17,671 bases of DNA. Source: Propionibacteriaceae bacterium (lineage in GTDB: Bacteria; Actinomycetota; Actinomycetes; Propionibacteriales; Propionibacteriaceae). The position numbers and the translations under genes are program-made. The notes beneath the pieces were generated by a model. That model saw nothing but the letters and a program-made list of their open reading frames with translations, had not been told where the DNA came from and ran no database searches. Within the stretch, counting starts at the first letter, position 1; every line of letters begins with the position of its first letter. The stretch is from assembly GCA_031287505.1 (NCBI GenBank), contig JAITSW010000258.1, positions 1-17,671 on the forward strand. Direction: 5' to 3'. Shown here in pieces: positions 11,252-17,671 of the stretch.

Positions 11252-12688
11252 ATGGTTCGAAAGCTCAAACTCCAGCCGCTCACCAAGCATTCCCTAGTTC
11301 GCCGCCTAGTGGGGCAGACGACTTTGATCGTTGCCGTGGTCACTGTTGTGCTCTCTGCCCTTTCGCTGGTCGCCAGCTTTCAAATCTTGCTTCGCGAACT
11401 TGACGACCGGTTGCTCGTTTCAGCCCAGCGGGTGAATATCGCCCAAAGTTTCCCCACTGACGCCGACCCTTGTGACCGATACGCAAGTGATCTCATTCGC
11501 CTGGAAGTCATCAACAACCGCGACATTTTCGTATACACCTGCCCTTCCCTGCCCAACGAGAATTCCCTTCGACAGCTAGCGGCGATCACCCCTGCCGCTG
11601 GCCCGCAGACCATAGTGCTGTCCGATATGGGCGTCTACCGGGCACTGGCCATCCAATTGCGCTATTCCGATCGAATTGTGGTGGCGCTGCCCTACGCCGA
11701 AGTGTCAAAACCGATGACCGGCCAGGTGGGCGCCATGGGCATCCTCACCTTGATCGCTATCGGAGCCGCCTATTTGGGGACGCGTCTAATGGTGACGAAG
11801 TCGCTCGCCTCGCTCGACAGGCTCACTCAAACAGCTACCTACGTCTCAAATCTCCCGCTAGATTCTGGAGATGGCATAGTCGGGGTACGTTTCAACGATC
11901 CGGACGCATCCCCCGAGAGTGAGGTGGGATGCGTCGGGCAGGCCTTCAACCACATGCTCGACAATGTCGAAGGAGCCCTAGCTGCCCGGCACGCGAGCGA
12001 AACCAAGGTGCGCCAATTTGTGGCAGACGCCTCACACGAGCTGCGAAATCCACTGGCGTCCATCCGCGGCTATGCGGAGCTGACCAGGAGAAATGGCGAA
12101 GACCTACCACCCGATACCGCCTATGCCCTCACTCGGATCGAATCTGAGGGCGAACGGATGACGGCGTTGGTAAACGATCTGCTGTTGCTGGCCCGTTTAG
12201 ATGCCAGCCCCGAGCTTGACCACAAGCCGACGGACATCACCGACATCGTTCTCAATGCCGTCAGCGATGCCCAAGCAGCCGGACCCGATCATGAATGGAA
12301 GCTGGACATCCCGGAAACCCTGATTATCATCCCAGGTGATTCAGACCAGTTACACCAGGTGCTGGCCAATCTGCTTGCCAACGCCCGCATTCACACTCCG
12401 GCCCGCACCAAGGTGACAACCTCGCTGCGAGTCGAAGGCGGTTGGGCGGTCTTATCAGTGGGCGACAACGGCCCGGGCGTGCCCGAAGATGCCCAGGAGA
12501 CAATCTTTGAACGCTTCTCCCGGGTCGATTCTTCCCGAATGCGCCAAGCCGGCGGCCAAAGCACCGGGCTCGGACTGGCGATTGTCTCCGCAACGGTGGC
12601 CGCGCACGGTGGAACAGTCGAATTGAACTCGGTGCCCGGCAACACGGTATTCACCGTCCGGCTGCCAATGGCAAACCCAAAGAAGTAG
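11252..12688 (+). CDS. Sensor histidine kinase
   Basis: This 478-residue membrane kinase is the partner of the upstream regulator. Segments in order: transmembrane helix about 22-48, extracytoplasmic sensor about 49-155, second helix about 157-180, HAMP linker about 181-250, and HisKA with phospho-acceptor H262 in DASHELRNPLASIRGYAEL. The ATPase domain follows, with N-box N377 (NLLANARIHTP), G1 DNGPG (405-409) and G2 STGLGLAI (437-444). The sensor loop has two cysteines (C74, C97) that could pair. I use the ATG at 11252, which matches the usual basic N terminus, although its ribosome site is weak; a start at 11087 would overlap the regulator by over 140 bp. The signal sensed is unknown. Confidence 0.92.
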   Translation: MVRKLKLQPLTKHSLVRRLVGQTTLIVAVVTVVLSALSLVASFQILLRELDDRLLVSAQRVNIAQSFPTDADPCDRYASDLIRLEVINNRDIFVYTCPSLPNENSLRQLAAITPAAGPQTIVLSDMGVYRALAIQLRYSDRIVVALPYAEVSKPMTGQVGAMGILTLIAIGAAYLGTRLMVTKSLASLDRLTQTATYVSNLPLDSGDGIVGVRFNDPDASPESEVGCVGQAFNHMLDNVEGALAARHASETKVRQFVADASHELRNPLASIRGYAELTRRNGEDLPPDTAYALTRIESEGERMTALVNDLLLLARLDASPELDHKPTDITDIVLNAVSDAQAAGPDHEWKLDIPETLIIIPGDSDQLHQVLANLLANARIHTPARTKVTTSLRVEGGWAVLSVGDNGPGVPEDAQETIFERFSRVDSSRMRQAGGQSTGLGLAIVSATVAAHGGTVELNSVPGNTVFTVRLPMANPKK

Positions 12689-12702
12689 TGCTCGGCTACT
12701 TC
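12682..12702. terminator. Shared convergent hairpin containing both stop codons
   Basis: GAAGTAG (12682-12688) and CTACTTC (12696-12702) form a perfect 7-bp stem around a 7-nt loop. The kinase TAG is the end of the left arm, and the complement of the lipoprotein TAG begins the right arm. An A-run precedes it and a CCTTTT run follows, so it could terminate in both directions. The stem is short, and strength is uncertain. Confidence 0.55.
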
Positions 12703-13613
12703 ACCTTTTCGGCTACCCAAGGGGCGGCAACGGTGAGCGGATCCGCACCGGAAGCCACCTGCGTTTCGAGGACGGCAAACTCGGCTGCGGTGAGGGCCTT
12801 CATGGCCTCGTTTACCTTGATGATTGCCTCAGGCTGATCTTCAGCCAATGTCTTGGTAAACAGCACGGCCACCGGGTCTGCCATCGCGATACCCCGGGTA
12901 TCGGCGAGTTGCTTTAGCCCGCTTAGCTCGGCCACCTCGAGAGCCCGAAAAGCCGCTACAAAAGCATCTTGTCCAGCAGCCCGCTCGTGACGGGCAAAGG
13001 CATTGTCTTCCACTTGGAAATCCAACGCGGCCGAGTAGACAGCTTGTATGGCTGGGACGCCGTCCGAACGGGTGATCGCAAACTTCGGCACCAACGCCAG
13101 CGGCGATTCCCCGCCTATAGCCCGGGCCGCCGCCTCCCAGTCGGCGATATCTGTTTTGCCGGTAGCCCAGACCAACTTGCCATCGAGCCCATTGGGTTGC
13201 AATAGCGAGATGTCCGGGGCAAGTTTGGCTGCTAGGGTGGCAACGACTTCTTCAGGAGCCGGGGGCTCCTCTCCCGCCAAGTTCTGCTCTAACAGCGTCG
13301 CCGCAAAACCCGGATAGACCGAAATAGTCCCCACGCTCATTTGGGCGATCAGTTCCCCGCCGGTGGCGGGGACGTCTACCAACTCGGCGCCAACGCCAGC
13401 GAGTTTGACCGCCTCCGCGCATACTGCCGCCAGCGTCTTTTCAGCCGCCGACGGGCCAACCCCCACGGCTAGAGTGGCAACCGCCGGCTCTTCAGATAGA
13501 ACCGGCGTTTCAGAGGGCGTCGAGACCCCAGTTGGCACCGGCGCCACTTGGGCGCACCCCGCTAGCACCAACAACGGCAACAGCAAAACCGCCAATACCC
13601 GAATCTGTTTCAC
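12696..13613 (-). CDS. OpuAC/ProX-type ABC substrate-binding lipoprotein
   Basis: This 305-residue lipoprotein has a signal peptide MKQIRVLAVLLLPLLVLAGC whose lipobox LAGC puts the lipidated cysteine at residue 20. A Pro/Thr/Ser-rich linker and a mature binding domain follow. The block SVYPGFAATLLEQNL, then EEVVATLAAKL and the later FRALEVAELSGLKQLADTRG, align with glycine-betaine/choline/carnitine-binding proteins of the ProX/OsmX type, although divergently. No ATPase or permease gene is beside it, so it is an orphan component in this window. I chose the GTG at 13613 because GGAGGAG lies just upstream; a longer frame to 13664 adds a tryptophan-rich stretch before the signal peptide. It converges on the sensor kinase. 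The ligand is uncertain. Confidence 0.72.
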   Translation of the reverse strand: MKQIRVLAVLLLPLLVLAGCAQVAPVPTGVSTPSETPVLSEEPAVATLAVGVGPSAAEKTLAAVCAEAVKLAGVGAELVDVPATGGELIAQMSVGTISVYPGFAATLLEQNLAGEEPPAPEEVVATLAAKLAPDISLLQPNGLDGKLVWATGKTDIADWEAAARAIGGESPLALVPKFAITRSDGVPAIQAVYSAALDFQVEDNAFARHERAAGQDAFVAAFRALEVAELSGLKQLADTRGIAMADPVAVLFTKTLAEDQPEAIIKVNEAMKALTAAEFAVLETQVASGADPLTVAAPWVAEKVK

Positions 13614-13692
13614 GACTCTCCTCCAGTAAGACCGATACCCCCACCATAGCCACCAATCGTTCAATGCTGCGTAAGGCTAGCGTGGAAACGAA

Positions 13693-13722
13693 GGCGATAA
13701 GCCGCTGCCAGGCGTTATCGCC
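13693..13722. terminator. Strong stem-loop between the catabolic operon and the lipoprotein gene
   Basis: GGCGATAA (13693-13700) pairs perfectly with TTATCGCC (13715-13722), and GCC/GGC extends the stem inside across a one-base bulge. Read on the minus strand it is followed by TTCGTTTCC. It lies 168 bp after the sugar isomerase stop and 80 bp before the lipoprotein start. It could end the catabolic operon transcript or sit in the lipoprotein leader. Confidence 0.45.
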
Positions 13723-13788
13723 ACCCATAAGACCCATCTCACTGCGATATATGCCGCACGGGCTGTCGGATCGAGAACCGCGGGCCTT

Positions 13789-13880
13789 TGCCGCTTAGCC
13801 CGGGTGGCTGGACTGCGGCAGGAGGCTCGCAGCTCCGCCGCCCACCTGCGCTTAACCCGGCGTGACCGGACTGCGGGGGT
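13789..13880. repeat. Hairpin-rich imperfect repeat pair downstream of the isomerase
   Basis: Two related segments start near 13794 (CTTAGCCCGGGTGGCTGGAC) and 13852 (CTTAACCCGGCGTGACCGGA), each continuing into TGCGG. The first is enclosed by TGCCGC (13789-13794) and GCGGCA (13815-13820), with an inner AGCC-CGGGT-GGCT hairpin. The second has CCGG-CGTGA-CCGG. The rest of the gap 13614-13889 shows no gene. Confidence 0.45.
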
Positions 13881-13889
13881 ATTGCCGGT

Positions 13890-14723
13890 TTACCAGCCTG
13901 CTCCCTGCCCTGCGACATCGCGCAACATCGCCAAATCGGCTGCCGCCAGATCCCAGCCATCGCCAAAATTGCTCATCGGAGGCAGGTAGAAATAGTTCTC
14001 GGCCATGATCCAACCGGAGTACCCCAACTCCTTCAGGACTCCCATCGTCTCGTGGAATTTGCCGACTCCCTTACCCAACGGGCAACAGCCAATCAGATTC
14101 TCGGGAGCATCTTTCACATGGACGCAGTCTATTCGCTCAATACCAATCTGGCGTAACTCGTCGGGAGGGTTTGCGGTTCCGTGGCGAATGGGATTCAGGG
14201 AGTCATAGCAGAGTTTTAGCCCCCCTCCCACCTGATCCAGGACACCGAGCACTTTGTCTGTCGGACAGAAGGGCTCCCATGCGACCCTCACACCCTTGTC
14301 AAAAGCCAACTCGACAAAGTAGGCGAGCATTTTAACGGTATTCGCCATCTCATAGTCGTTGCGGAAATTAGCAACCTCGAACGAAGCCACCAAGAATGTC
14401 GGGATTGCCAGCGCCTCGCATACGGCAAGGTCTTTCTTGAAGTTGTCGATAGCAAGCTCACCTTCAGGACTCGCCATCGGGAAGCGAAGACCGCCGCCGT
14501 ATTTGATGCCGGCCGATTGGATGGCGTGAATACCCACCCCGCTGACGTCCATGGCCGCCAGATACAACTCCTGAATTCTAGGATCGTTGAGCGGGTAGTT
14601 TTGAGCCGAACCTCCCAAATCAAGGATCTGTATACCCTCAAAGCCCAGCTTGCCCGCCATTGTGATGGCTGCCGGCCCCTCGCCGGGCAGATACCAGCCG
14701 CAGACCCCAAAACGATTTGCCAT
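13890..14723 (-). CDS. Sugar isomerase/epimerase, AP endonuclease family 2 TIM barrel
   Basis: This 277-residue TIM-barrel protein belongs to the xylose-isomerase-like/AP endonuclease 2 family, which includes epimerases, isomerases and some dehydratases. The metal-binding set E-D-H-E is visible: E150 (VAWEPF), D174 (LCYDSLN), H202 (DCVHVKD) and E242 (IMAENYFY). The N terminus RFGVCGWYLPG and the GFEGIQILDLGG block are typical. An AAGGGA ribosome site lies just before the ATG at 14723. It is the last gene of a four-gene minus-strand operon, 56 bp after the reductase-like gene. The substrate is unknown; the operon suggests a keto or deoxy sugar acid. A role as a plain DNA repair enzyme is unlikely in this context. 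Confidence 0.8.
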   Translation of the reverse strand: MANRFGVCGWYLPGEGPAAITMAGKLGFEGIQILDLGGSAQNYPLNDPRIQELYLAAMDVSGVGIHAIQSAGIKYGGGLRFPMASPEGELAIDNFKKDLAVCEALAIPTFLVASFEVANFRNDYEMANTVKMLAYFVELAFDKGVRVAWEPFCPTDKVLGVLDQVGGGLKLCYDSLNPIRHGTANPPDELRQIGIERIDCVHVKDAPENLIGCCPLGKGVGKFHETMGVLKELGYSGWIMAENYFYLPPMSNFGDGWDLAAADLAMLRDVAGQGAGW

Positions 14724-14779
14724 GTTTTCCCTTCCCGAAATGCCGCAACGAGCCTCGCAAAAGGGGCGCGGCGGCGGCG

Positions 14780-15739
14780 CTAGCTTCTTTCCAGAGCAGC
14801 CAACAGCTCCGCTTGCGATACCGTGTTTGGCTCGATGATTCCCCGCACAACCTTGCGCGCGTATTCCTGGGCCAAGATATTCGCCGGCGTGGGGACGGCG
14901 AACAACCGTCCCATAAGCACAATTTCACCATTGAGAAAGTCGGTTTCCACACTTGAGGCACCTCGGTCGACGCTTTGCTTCGTTGACCCTCCGACGCGCG
15001 GAACACTTGGATCCACCGGCTCAGGCATCGGGATCACCGCGTCGGCATCTGGAAGAGACTGTCCCGCAGTGGCAAAGAGCACCTTCGCTTCGTTGGAAAG
15101 CAACGAGGCAAACTCAGCACCTTCGCCGGGCAAGCAGACGATCTCGATGACATTTGCCAGATTGACTATGAGCTTGAGGCGCTTAAAAGCCATGATGTTG
15201 GCAAATACCCCAGACTTCACGCCCGCCTTAATCAGGGTTCGCGCCACGGCTTCCACCGAGGCGTCATTGGCGCCGGTGTAGCTTCCGATCTGAATTGTCC
15301 CAGCTACCGGCGCTGAATGAGCCAGCACCACCCCCGGCTCGAGATAGGTGCCCAAGAGGGTGACGTTTGCACCCAAGACATCGGAAAAGAACCTGCTGGC
15401 CTGACGTTCGTTGTCAACACCATTTTGCATGCAGACTATCTTGATTCCAGCCGGGGCATACGCGACAAGATCGGCCAGAGCACCAGCCGTGTGCTGCGCT
15501 TTAACCGCTAAGACGACGATATCCCCTTCACTCAACTCGACCTCCCCCACAGATGCCACGGCGGGAATAGCCAGCGTTCTGCGCCCGGAAGGATCGACGA
15601 AGGCCAATCCATTAGCTTGAATGGCCTTGAGATGCGCGCCGCGGGCCACAAACACCACCTTTTCCCCAGCCTCATACAGTTTTGCGCCAACGACGCCGCC
15701 GATGGCGCCGGCTCCGATGACGACCCACTTACCTGTCAT
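14780..15739 (-). CDS. Ketopantoate-reductase-family (PanE/ApbA-like) dehydrogenase
   Basis: This 319-residue NAD(P)-dependent dehydrogenase has the PanE/ApbA fold. A Rossmann motif GAGAIGG spans 9-15, QNGVDN is at 105-110, and the catalytic-type K-x-x-x-N is K189...N193 in FKRLKLIVNLAN. The C-terminal helical domain has STKQSVDRG and ETDFLNGEIVLMG, as in ketopantoate reductases. Because it sits inside a catabolic operon rather than with panB/panC, it more likely interconverts a 2-keto acid and a 2-hydroxy acid of that pathway. Its ATG (15739-15737) overlaps the enolase-family stop in an ATGA junction, with an AGGAGTAGGA ribosome site. Biosynthetic pantothenate function remains the alternative. 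Confidence 0.85.
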   Translation of the reverse strand: MTGKWVVIGAGAIGGVVGAKLYEAGEKVVFVARGAHLKAIQANGLAFVDPSGRRTLAIPAVASVGEVELSEGDIVVLAVKAQHTAGALADLVAYAPAGIKIVCMQNGVDNERQASRFFSDVLGANVTLLGTYLEPGVVLAHSAPVAGTIQIGSYTGANDASVEAVARTLIKAGVKSGVFANIMAFKRLKLIVNLANVIEIVCLPGEGAEFASLLSNEAKVLFATAGQSLPDADAVIPMPEPVDPSVPRVGGSTKQSVDRGASSVETDFLNGEIVLMGRLFAVPTPANILAQEYARKVVRGIIEPNTVSQAELLAALERS

Positions 15740-16938
15740 TTCCTACTCCTTGTTGTTGTTAATTTGCCTACGCTTTTTGGACATGAGGTGAGCGTATATG
15801 CCGCCAGCGCGTCCTCGTCCCAAATAATTCCGTGCCCGGGACGCTCGGGCGGGCTCACCTTGCCCGCAATTGGGCGCAAAGGGCTGGCAATGACCCGTTC
15901 AAAGATCGGGAAGTCCTCTAACCAGGTGGTGGCGGGGACCGCCGATGCCAAGTGGGCGTGCAGATCACCCAGCGAATGCCAGCCGATGGCTATCTCCGGC
16001 TGCCGGCCTATTGCCCGGGCCATTTCCAACATCACATCTATGCCTCCGCCTAAGGCGGCGTCGGGCTGATAGAAGGCGATTCCCGTCTCGGCGAGATACC
16101 GCTGCAGCTGAGCCAAACCCTGAAAATGTTCCCCAGTGGCGATGGGAATCGGGGAAGTCTGCGCTAATTGCCGATATTCGAAGACCTTTTCGGCAAGCAT
16201 GGGCTCTTCAAACCAAAGCAACCCCAAGTGAGAAGCTTTGCAGGCAAACTCAAGGGCTTGGGCATATGAGTAGCGCTCGGATCCATCAACCATCACCGGG
16301 ATATGCTCCGGGAGCGCTTCCCGCACTGCCGTTACCCGCGCCACATCCACGTCAATCGGGTGTGCCCCGATAGCGATCTTCACCCCGGCAAAACCATCTT
16401 CGACGTAGCCCAGGCTGAGTTCGATTAGCTCCGTTGTGCTAAAGCCTTGCCCGGAACGTCCTGAACCGTAAAGCGGAACTGCCCGCGAAACGCCGCCCAA
16501 CAGTTGATAGAGCGGCTCGCCGGCCAGTTTTGCCCGCAGGTCCCAAATTGCGATATCCACCGCCGAAAGAGCCGCGGTAAAAGCTGTGGCCCCCAATCTG
16601 CGAGTTAGCGCGATAATGGTGCGTTTGCCCTCTTCCCAATCGCTTAGCGGACGGCCGATGAGTGCGGGGGCGATAACGTCGTCCACCATCGTCTTCACCA
16701 CCGTTGCCCCGATATCGAGCGTGTAGGTAAAACCGGTTCCCACTACCCCATTTGAGTCATAAATCTCCACAAAGGGCATATTGACGCTTTGATACCCAAA
16801 GCCGTGCATAAACGAGGGCAGCGGCACCGCCAATATCCGCGCCACCACGCTGGCCACCATGGCATCTGGAACCCGGCCTACCCCGGGAAAAGCGGAGGCC
16901 GGAAACAGGCCTTGGAATTTACTTGATGGCGAGTGCAT
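15736..16938 (-). CDS. Enolase-superfamily (mandelate racemase/muconate lactonizing-like) enzyme
   Basis: This protein has a capping domain followed by a modified TIM barrel of the mandelate racemase subgroup, which abstracts the alpha-proton of carboxylates; most members are acid-sugar dehydratases or racemases. Numbering from 16938, metal ligands are D218 (VMVDGS), E244 (WFEEP) and E270 (ATGEH). The Asp-His dyad is D293 (QPDAALGGG) and H321 (GWHS). The usual KxK on strand two is VKIAIG, with K187 retained and the second lysine replaced by A189. The start is uncertain: the ATG at 16938 overlaps the upstream gene by 20 bp, but family alignment favours the ATG at 16860 (MVASVVARILAVPL, 374 aa). 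Neither has a good ribosome site. It is coupled to the next gene by ATGA. Confidence 0.88.
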   Translation of the reverse strand: MHSPSSKFQGLFPASAFPGVGRVPDAMVASVVARILAVPLPSFMHGFGYQSVNMPFVEIYDSNGVVGTGFTYTLDIGATVVKTMVDDVIAPALIGRPLSDWEEGKRTIIALTRRLGATAFTAALSAVDIAIWDLRAKLAGEPLYQLLGGVSRAVPLYGSGRSGQGFSTTELIELSLGYVEDGFAGVKIAIGAHPIDVDVARVTAVREALPEHIPVMVDGSERYSYAQALEFACKASHLGLLWFEEPMLAEKVFEYRQLAQTSPIPIATGEHFQGLAQLQRYLAETGIAFYQPDAALGGGIDVMLEMARAIGRQPEIAIGWHSLGDLHAHLASAVPATTWLEDFPIFERVIASPLRPIAGKVSPPERPGHGIIWDEDALAAYTLTSCPKSVGKLTTTRSRK

Positions 16939-17671
16939 TAGCGGGTGAACCCACCCCTCCGGTGAGATTGAGCGGCTTAGCGCTGAAGAAGAATTCGTAG
17001 CGCCCGTCTAAGGCGCAATCTGCGGCGAGGGCTTCCAAGTCGAACATTTCACCAAGGGCAAAGCCGAGCAGTGGAATCAAAGGACGGTGCAGCCCGCCGT
17101 TGTGGTCTGGCCCCTTTTCCGGCTTCGGCGAAACCGGCAGCGTCACATCATTGGCAGCGGTGTAGGGATAAGCCTCAACGCCGAGATTATCTGCCGCTAT
17201 GAGGGCGAAGTGGCGATCCCAAAGCCACGCGACGATTGCCTGCGTCGAAGCCAGCCCCGGGACACGCATATCCGCCTTGAACACCCGCCGGTCTTCTTCA
17301 CTCATCCCGGTGCGGCAATACTCTGCAAACCCGGTGCGCACCAGCAGGATATCGCCGTCAAGAAAGGCCGTGCCCTGGGTTTTGGCGGTGGCTTCAAGAT
17401 CTTCCACAGTGATCTGATATGCCGTCCTTGGGTCAATGGGGCGACCTTGGCAGGCCAGGTATCCGGCGACGTCTAGCAGGATACCCCGGCCGACGAAGGG
17501 GCGTTCTGCCCAGTGCTGGATGCCCAACCTGGTGTTTTTTTCACCAAATTCACCAGCTTGCGCCCCGCCGTAGAACCCAAGCCCCGGATAGCCAATATGC
17601 CGTAAACCGTCTATTTGAGTCGTCGATTGCAGATAGAACGAATCAAGCCAATCGTCGTGGTGTAGCGGGCT
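16919..17671 (-). CDS. Cyclase-family (PF04199) metal-dependent hydrolase, 5' end off window
   Basis: The open frame runs through the right edge, so the first residues are missing; 250 codons are visible. Conserved blocks are STTQIDGLRHIGY (near the visible N terminus, with metal-ligand Asp and His), GRGILLDVAGYLA, GDILLVRTGFAEY, AADNLGVEAYP, LHRPLIPLLGFALGEMFDLEAL and GGVGSPANALAIK at the end. These match the cyclase/kynurenine-formamidase-like family, especially the subgroup with a TQ(W/I)DGL motif rather than GTHxD. Members hydrolyse amides or lactones such as N-formylkynurenine or isatin. No tryptophan-pathway genes are nearby, so ring opening of a lactone or amide feeding the downstream enolase-type enzyme is a guess. 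A TTG at 17527 is not the true start. Confidence 0.87.
   Translation of the reverse strand, partial: SPLHHDDWLDSFYLQSTTQIDGLRHIGYPGLGFYGGAQAGEFGEKNTRLGIQHWAERPFVGRGILLDVAGYLACQGRPIDPRTAYQITVEDLEATAKTQGTAFLDGDILLVRTGFAEYCRTGMSEEDRRVFKADMRVPGLASTQAIVAWLWDRHFALIAADNLGVEAYPYTAANDVTLPVSPKPEKGPDHNGGLHRPLIPLLGFALGEMFDLEALAADCALDGRYEFFFSAKPLNLTGGVGSPANALAIK

Follow-up and report, generated by a model that had tools for sequence, protein, structure and literature searches.

What reaction sequence could be encoded by four genes that lie closely packed at the right end of a bacterial contig? The stretch of DNA analysed here (hereafter the window, 17,671 nucleotides) is one entire contig, JAITSW010000258.1, from the Propionibacteriaceae bacterium assembly GCA_031287505.1, which comprises 1.64 Mb in 267 contigs and is 71.4% complete. 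Open reading frame (ORF) reading gives four open frames at positions 13890-17671, all on the minus strand, encoding in the order of reading a cyclase-family hydrolase, an enolase-superfamily enzyme, a PanE-type dehydrogenase, and a xylose-isomerase-like protein (below, the isomerase). Tentatively, and with somewhat less than even confidence, we interpret this locus as a route in which a lactone is opened, the product is likely dehydrated to a 2-keto acid, 2-keto and 2-hydroxy acids are interconverted, and an isomerisation has likely been added. Gene content, family membership, packing, and active-site residues are observed directly, and the reaction types follow from families and active sites; we infer the lactone or other substrate, the order of the steps, the direction of the PanE-type reaction, and co-transcription. 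All parts belong to known families, and the four-gene combination was not encountered in the searches made here. No published description of it was found in the literature searched, where subscription journals were thinly covered, so that this is weak evidence of absence; the first-pass annotation of this DNA knew of no named pathway with exactly this set.

Families and active sites of the four enzymes

Pfam and NCBIfam profile searches were judged against the curated cut-off of each family. Every protein exceeds its Pfam cut-off (PF04199 at 53.6 bits for the hydrolase; MR_MLE_C at 146.7 and MR_MLE_N at 53.8 bits for the enolase; ApbA at 101.5 and ApbA_C at 25.7 bits for the PanE-type protein; AP_endonuc_2 at 70.8 bits for the isomerase), which bears out the family calls made earlier from the sequence.

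The cyclase-family hydrolase carries the motif Q-x3-Q-x-D-x3-H (Q15, Q19, D21, and H25), followed later by H195 and E208; Q19 is kept in nine of the ten aligned cyclase proteins and the other five residues in all ten. The match to a 48%-identical relative starts at residue 86 of its 331, hence about 85 N-terminal residues are absent from the window protein. Its one convincing solved relative is 5IBZ, at an expectation value (E) of 1.6e-29; the remaining four matches (up to E 10) all have E of at least 1. The protein in 5IBZ, MGS0169, is described in the available part of its report as a metal-ion-stimulated esterase with weak isatin hydrolase activity, in which the two leading His of the family motif are replaced by Gln; the same modified motif is given there for trans-dienelactone hydrolase (PMC5341072). 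The motif of kynurenine formamidase and isatin hydrolase, as far as the accessible text of two papers goes, is H-x-G-T-H-x-D-x-P-x-H (PMC5341072, PMC4243253); the window protein lacks this motif, having Gln for the first two His, and kynurenine formamidase was rejected on this ground. Because the Gln motif is shared with MGS0169 and trans-dienelactone hydrolase, we assign the protein to a putative ester- or lactone-hydrolase branch, with opening of an ester or lactone likelier than opening of an amide. A second Gln-motif cyclase is present elsewhere in the same genome (locus L140, contig C253, 388-5733), where it follows a beta-lactamase-like gene and is flanked by two genes resembling sugar-binding lipoproteins.

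Both Pfam domains, the three acidic metal ligands (D192, E218, and E244), and the His-Asp dyad (D267/H295) of mandelate-racemase-like enolases are present in the second protein; these residues, together with K161, R88, and R135, are invariant in all 29 aligned relatives (29 of the first 33 listed; P0037, P0042, P0043, and P0052 were left out). The second position of the KxK motif is Ala163 in the window protein; of the 29 aligned proteins, 12 have Ala, Ser, or Gly there, 17 have Arg, and none has Lys. The roles of the active-site residues are those that we take to be general for this superfamily. Absence of the second KxK lysine favours a reaction in which the His acts as the one base, for example dehydration, and a racemase or other two-base enzyme of the mandelate-racemase kind was rejected; so was muconate cycloisomerase (TIGR02534), whose profile gives 75.2 bits where 334.95 are required. 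Among solved structures, 3,6-anhydro-L-galactonate cycloisomerase and L-talarate/galactarate dehydratase match best, alongside proteins deposited as racemases, and the top NCBIfam scores belong to acid-sugar dehydratases. Two structures of L-talarate/galactarate dehydratase differ at the second KxK position, with Lys in 2pp0 versus Ala in 2pp3, presumably a deliberate variant; the window enolase naturally has the Ala found in 2pp3. Another enolase-superfamily gene of the same genome (locus L141, contig C240, 7429-13514) is 30-34% identical to the window enolase, and its neighbours, judged by eye, are tripartite tricarboxylate transporter-like genes and a lyase of the adenylosuccinate/carboxymuconate kind.

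The PanE-type protein shares the glycines of the nucleotide fold, R33, N106, K186, K189, S252, and E265 with every other member of a 16-protein alignment, which omits P0154. It scores 126.2 bits with the 2-dehydropantoate 2-reductase profile TIGR00745, below the cut-off of 141.35, and a biosynthetic PanE (ketopantoate reductase) was rejected on this ground. Its best matches among solved structures, at E 4.1e-20 or weaker, carry the deposited name 2-dehydropantoate 2-reductase. We regard it as a probable 2-keto/2-hydroxy acid oxidoreductase, and from R33 we presume a preference for nicotinamide adenine dinucleotide phosphate (NADP).

The isomerase belongs to a rare family: only 20 sequences, including that of the window, were found among about 5.8 billion proteins, in a search that relies on shared five-residue words, so that remoter relatives may exist. 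The best relative is 63% identical, and the single named organism among them is a metagenome-assembled genome of Anaerovoracaceae; searches of 198 genomes from the bacterial family and 391 from its order, two sets that overlap, gave longer matches of 27-29% identity. This patchy spread suggests transfer. The structural model is confident (predicted local distance difference test, pLDDT, 93.3; predicted template modelling score, pTM, 0.90) and has the ketose 3-epimerase type of fold, with matches to UlaE, to D-tagatose and D-psicose 3-epimerases, and to Art22; a fold alone shows no function. The metal set E150, D174, H202, and E242 is kept in 20 of 20 relatives, and D-x-x-N at 174-177 is common to the window protein, UlaE, and 3tva in the alignment. 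The profile of UlaE-type L-ribulose-5-phosphate 3-epimerase (TIGR00542) gives 29.1 bits and its cut-off of 272.15 is not reached. C-glycoside deglycosylase, considered as another candidate activity, is not among the fold matches listed, an absence that is no test of it.

A mechanism can be proposed from these sites. In the first step, a metal-activated water would attack the lactone at the Gln/Asp/His site of the hydrolase. The carboxylate of the resulting acid would then be bound to the metal of the enolase, where H295, paired with D267, would serve as the sole acid/base and K161 takes the first lysine position of KxK; with a single acid/base, the enzyme is predicted to be a dehydratase and not a racemase, and it would form a 2-keto acid from the hydroxy acid. 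A second carboxylate may be bound by R88 and R135, both invariant, although this role is a guess. The PanE-type enzyme would interconvert the 2-keto and 2-hydroxy acids with NADP(H), and, optionally, the triosephosphate isomerase (TIM)-barrel protein would isomerise a keto intermediate. This last reaction looks like an added step, because the isomerase family is rare and shows no linkage to the others in the lists compared. Two pairs of options had been left side by side in the first-pass annotation: lactone or amide opening, of which the former agrees with the Gln motif and the PF04199 branch and the latter is less likely, and dehydration or racemisation, of which the former is likely and the latter unlikely in view of the missing lysine.

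Gene packing and transcription signals

Packing of the genes on one strand, noticed at first sight, is confirmed (Table 1), and an overlap is found at the enolase/PanE junction. There is likely none at the cyclase/enolase junction: the enolase's database cluster (P0021) and its nearest relatives start at the Met of position 16860, the likely start here as well, which puts 58 bases between the cyclase stop and the enolase gene. The gap from the PanE gene to the isomerase gene is 56 bases, and GGAAGGG precedes the isomerase ATG. Composition of the four genes is similar, with guanine-plus-cytosine (GC) fractions of 0.558-0.586 overall and 0.641-0.655 at third codon positions (GC3). A site scan of 12600-17671 found no sigma-70-like promoter (2.0 expected) and six terminator-like sites (5.3 expected), so the argument for co-transcription comes from packing and orientation alone; the four closely packed genes likely form one operon. 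No continuation of the contig was found when the source genome was searched with the last 192 bases, which gave, besides themselves, seven short matches, all at E of at least 0.078.

Table 1. Features of the four-gene locus in the window
Feature	Position	Strand	Remarks
PF04199 cyclase-family hydrolase, Gln-motif branch	16919..17671	-	250 residues, 5' end cut by contig edge; Pfam 53.6 bits
Enolase-superfamily enzyme, mandelate-racemase-like	15736..16860	-	374 residues from likely start; ORF opens 16938
PanE/ApbA-type dehydrogenase	14780..15739	-	319 residues; ApbA and ApbA_C over cut-off
Xylose-isomerase-like TIM-barrel (AP_endonuc_2), 3-epimerase-type fold	13890..14723	-	277 residues; Pfam 70.8 bits
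ATGA overlap, enolase stop/PanE start	15736..15739	-	junction sequence
AAGGAG, likely ribosome-binding site of PanE gene	15746..15751	-	sequence, by eye

The next gene on this strand (12696-13664), 225 bases beyond the isomerase, appears by eye to be lipoprotein-like. It matched no Pfam or NCBIfam family and may encode a solute-binding protein.

Neighbourhoods in other genomes

Searches with the enolase covered 147 genomes at family level and 394 at class level, those with its profile 396 genomes of the phylum, those with the enolase of a relative 299 genomes of another family, and those with the cyclase 157 genomes of the bacterium's own family; all genome sets, including those searched with the isomerase, overlap. 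The best whole-length enolase matches listed are 36-37% identical (family and class), with one stretch of 101 residues at 42%; identity is at most 34% in 14 phylum loci and reaches 38.6% in plasmids. The sole closer match listed, 43-45% identical in two pieces, is in locus L093 (7288-16003), where the enolase, in two frames, is accompanied by a GntR-like regulator (by eye), a DUF1932 dehydrogenase, an NMT1-type binding protein with an ATP-binding cassette (ABC) transporter, two DUF6282 genes, one PIG-L gene, and one RraA-like gene. This cluster looks like a separate aromatic or tricarboxylate route.

When the four proteins were compared by tblastn with the 144 fetched loci, at least two of them were matched in eight loci, six of which are the window's own contig. 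The two others contain distant relatives (enolase 28% and PanE 37% identical in L035; cyclase 40% and enolase 25% in L038), and three or more of the four proteins were matched in no locus outside the window contig. Thus the neighbourhood check proposed earlier for all four families together came out negative: the adjacent four-gene set was not found in another genome among the matches listed, most of them with about 1.5 kb of flank, at which remoter co-location could be missed.

Linkage was also compared among database relatives of three of the proteins (the 120 listed of 538 enolase relatives, 119 of the 120 listed of 2402 PanE relatives, and the 20 isomerases), with equal sizes of the longest contig used as a stand-in for a shared contig. 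Besides the window, enolase and PanE relatives have equal-size contigs twice, at 6,478 bases (P0027/P0142) and 65,913 bases (P0029/P0147, both named Gryllotalpicola), and in R. opacus PD630 distant relatives of the two are close together. For the 19 isomerase relatives outside the window, no contig equals in size that of a listed enolase or PanE relative. As judged from these lists, the enolase and PanE genes appear to recur together, and the isomerase looks like an addition; one conserved four-enzyme pathway is not supported.

Candidate pathway, rival explanations, and known systems

One rival explanation, which we consider unlikely, is degradation of an aromatic compound, in which a ring-fission lactone would be opened by a trans-dienelactone-hydrolase-like enzyme and a C-C lyase such as an RraA-type aldolase would lie beyond the contig edge. 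The Gln motif common to the cyclase and trans-dienelactone hydrolase (PMC5341072, available part) is consistent with it, as are the PIG-L, RraA-like, and DUF6282 genes near the enolase of L093, the one RraA-like gene of the source genome, on a different contig, and a cyclase relative in Rhodococcus USK13 that adjoins genes for catechol 1,2-dioxygenase, muconate cycloisomerase, and maleylacetate reductase. However, the USK13 enolase is just 25% identical to that of the window, which has no second KxK lysine and falls far short of the muconate cycloisomerase cut-off, and no ring-cleavage gene is present among the window ORFs read. Similarly improbable is a threonate-like scheme, with oxidation of a 2-hydroxy acid by the PanE-type enzyme, isomerisation of the 2-oxo to a 3-oxo acid by the TIM-barrel protein, and related acids fed in by the hydrolase and the enolase. 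Its order would be that of the L-threonate pathway, where dehydrogenase LtnD is followed by isomerase OtnI (PMC12540250, available part), and the PanE and isomerase genes do adjoin; but LtnD is described there with NAD_binding_2/11 domains, not PanE, and no listed isomerase relative is on a contig equal in size to that of a listed PanE relative. No OtnK-family kinase gene is present among the window ORFs read; in favour of the scheme, the source genome has one (PF07005), though on a separate contig, followed by a gene resembling those for enzymes of the 3-hydroxyisobutyrate-dehydrogenase type (locus L144, contig C138, 3-2297). This genome may use tetronic acids.

We also assign a low probability to the isomerase being a chance neighbour or recent arrival, outside the pathway of the other three. 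The small size of its family, the 56-base gap before its gene, and the fact that, of the 15 contigs of at least 3 kb that carry isomerase sequences, that of the window alone is shared with the other lists, all point in this direction. Against it, the gene is on the same strand with its own ribosome site, and its composition (GC 0.558, GC3 0.655) is close to that of the other three (0.579-0.586 and 0.641-0.644), showing no sign of transfer or recent arrival.

The route from lactone opening through dehydration to 2-keto/2-hydroxy interconversion remains our preferred reading, and several observations weigh against it. The fourth step fits poorly, because a 3-epimerase acts on a hydroxyl at C3, which the predicted enolase product, a 2-keto-3-deoxy acid, lacks. 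None of the four proteins exceeds any NCBIfam cut-off, so no substrate is fixed by these profiles. Neighbourhoods of cyclase relatives range from the aromatic type of USK13 to the sugar type, with genes of GMC oxidoreductase and gluconolactonase families adjoining another relative and, by our reading of unannotated ORFs, an NMT1-kind ABC transporter adjoining a further one, and they agree on no substrate class. The pairing of enolase and PanE depends on contig size as a proxy, and PanE relatives are also found without an adjoining enolase relative. Finally, in L093, the nearest readable enolase neighbourhood, no cyclase, PanE, or isomerase match was found at E 0.01, and its enolase is in the Arg branch (P0044-like by eye).

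Overall, the locus looks like an ordinary catabolic operon. It is rather doubtful, although conceivable, that it encodes an undescribed route centred on a one-base enolase subfamily, whose two invariant arginines would hold a second carboxylate. With a Gln-site lactonase and a PanE-type 2-hydroxyacid dehydrogenase dedicated to it, this enolase would process a dicarboxylic-acid lactone outside any named pathway, and the rare epimerase would have been recruited to extend the range. If the proposed pathway is true, it would provide a testable anchor for three groups with poor assignments: the Gln-motif PF04199 hydrolases, the enolase subfamily without the second KxK lysine, and "ketopantoate reductases" whose probable role is that of catabolic hydroxyacid dehydrogenases. 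The gain would be a pathway and no new principle; the finding is sound but modest.

Each part of the locus can be set beside a known system. The succession of a dehydrogenase and a 2-oxo-acid isomerase recalls the L-threonate pathway (LtnD, OtnI, OtnK, and OtnC), as far as its description was available, but the dehydrogenase is of another family and no kinase or decarboxylase gene is seen in the window. The isomerase, at about 14-21% identity in structural alignment with UlaE, the D-tagatose and D-psicose 3-epimerases, and Art22, would represent a separate rare family. The PanE-type protein has both Pfam domains and the family-typical residues of 2-dehydropantoate 2-reductase (PanE/ApbA) and of PanE-type 2-hydroxyacid dehydrogenases; unlike the former, it stays below the TIGR00745 cut-off and is encoded in a catabolic-looking cluster. 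The hydrolase resembles MGS0169 and trans-dienelactone hydrolase in its Gln motif and in the His and Glu further along, the likeness to trans-dienelactone hydrolase being drawn from the published motif and not from direct sequence comparison; the window gene is cut. In contrast to L-talarate/galactarate dehydratase, the window enolase has Ala for the second KxK lysine and scores 178.6 bits with the corresponding profile NF047820, whose cut-off of 500 is not reached; with this enzyme and with 3,6-anhydro-L-galactonate cycloisomerase it has in common the fold, the metal ligands, the His-Asp dyad, and the first KxK lysine.

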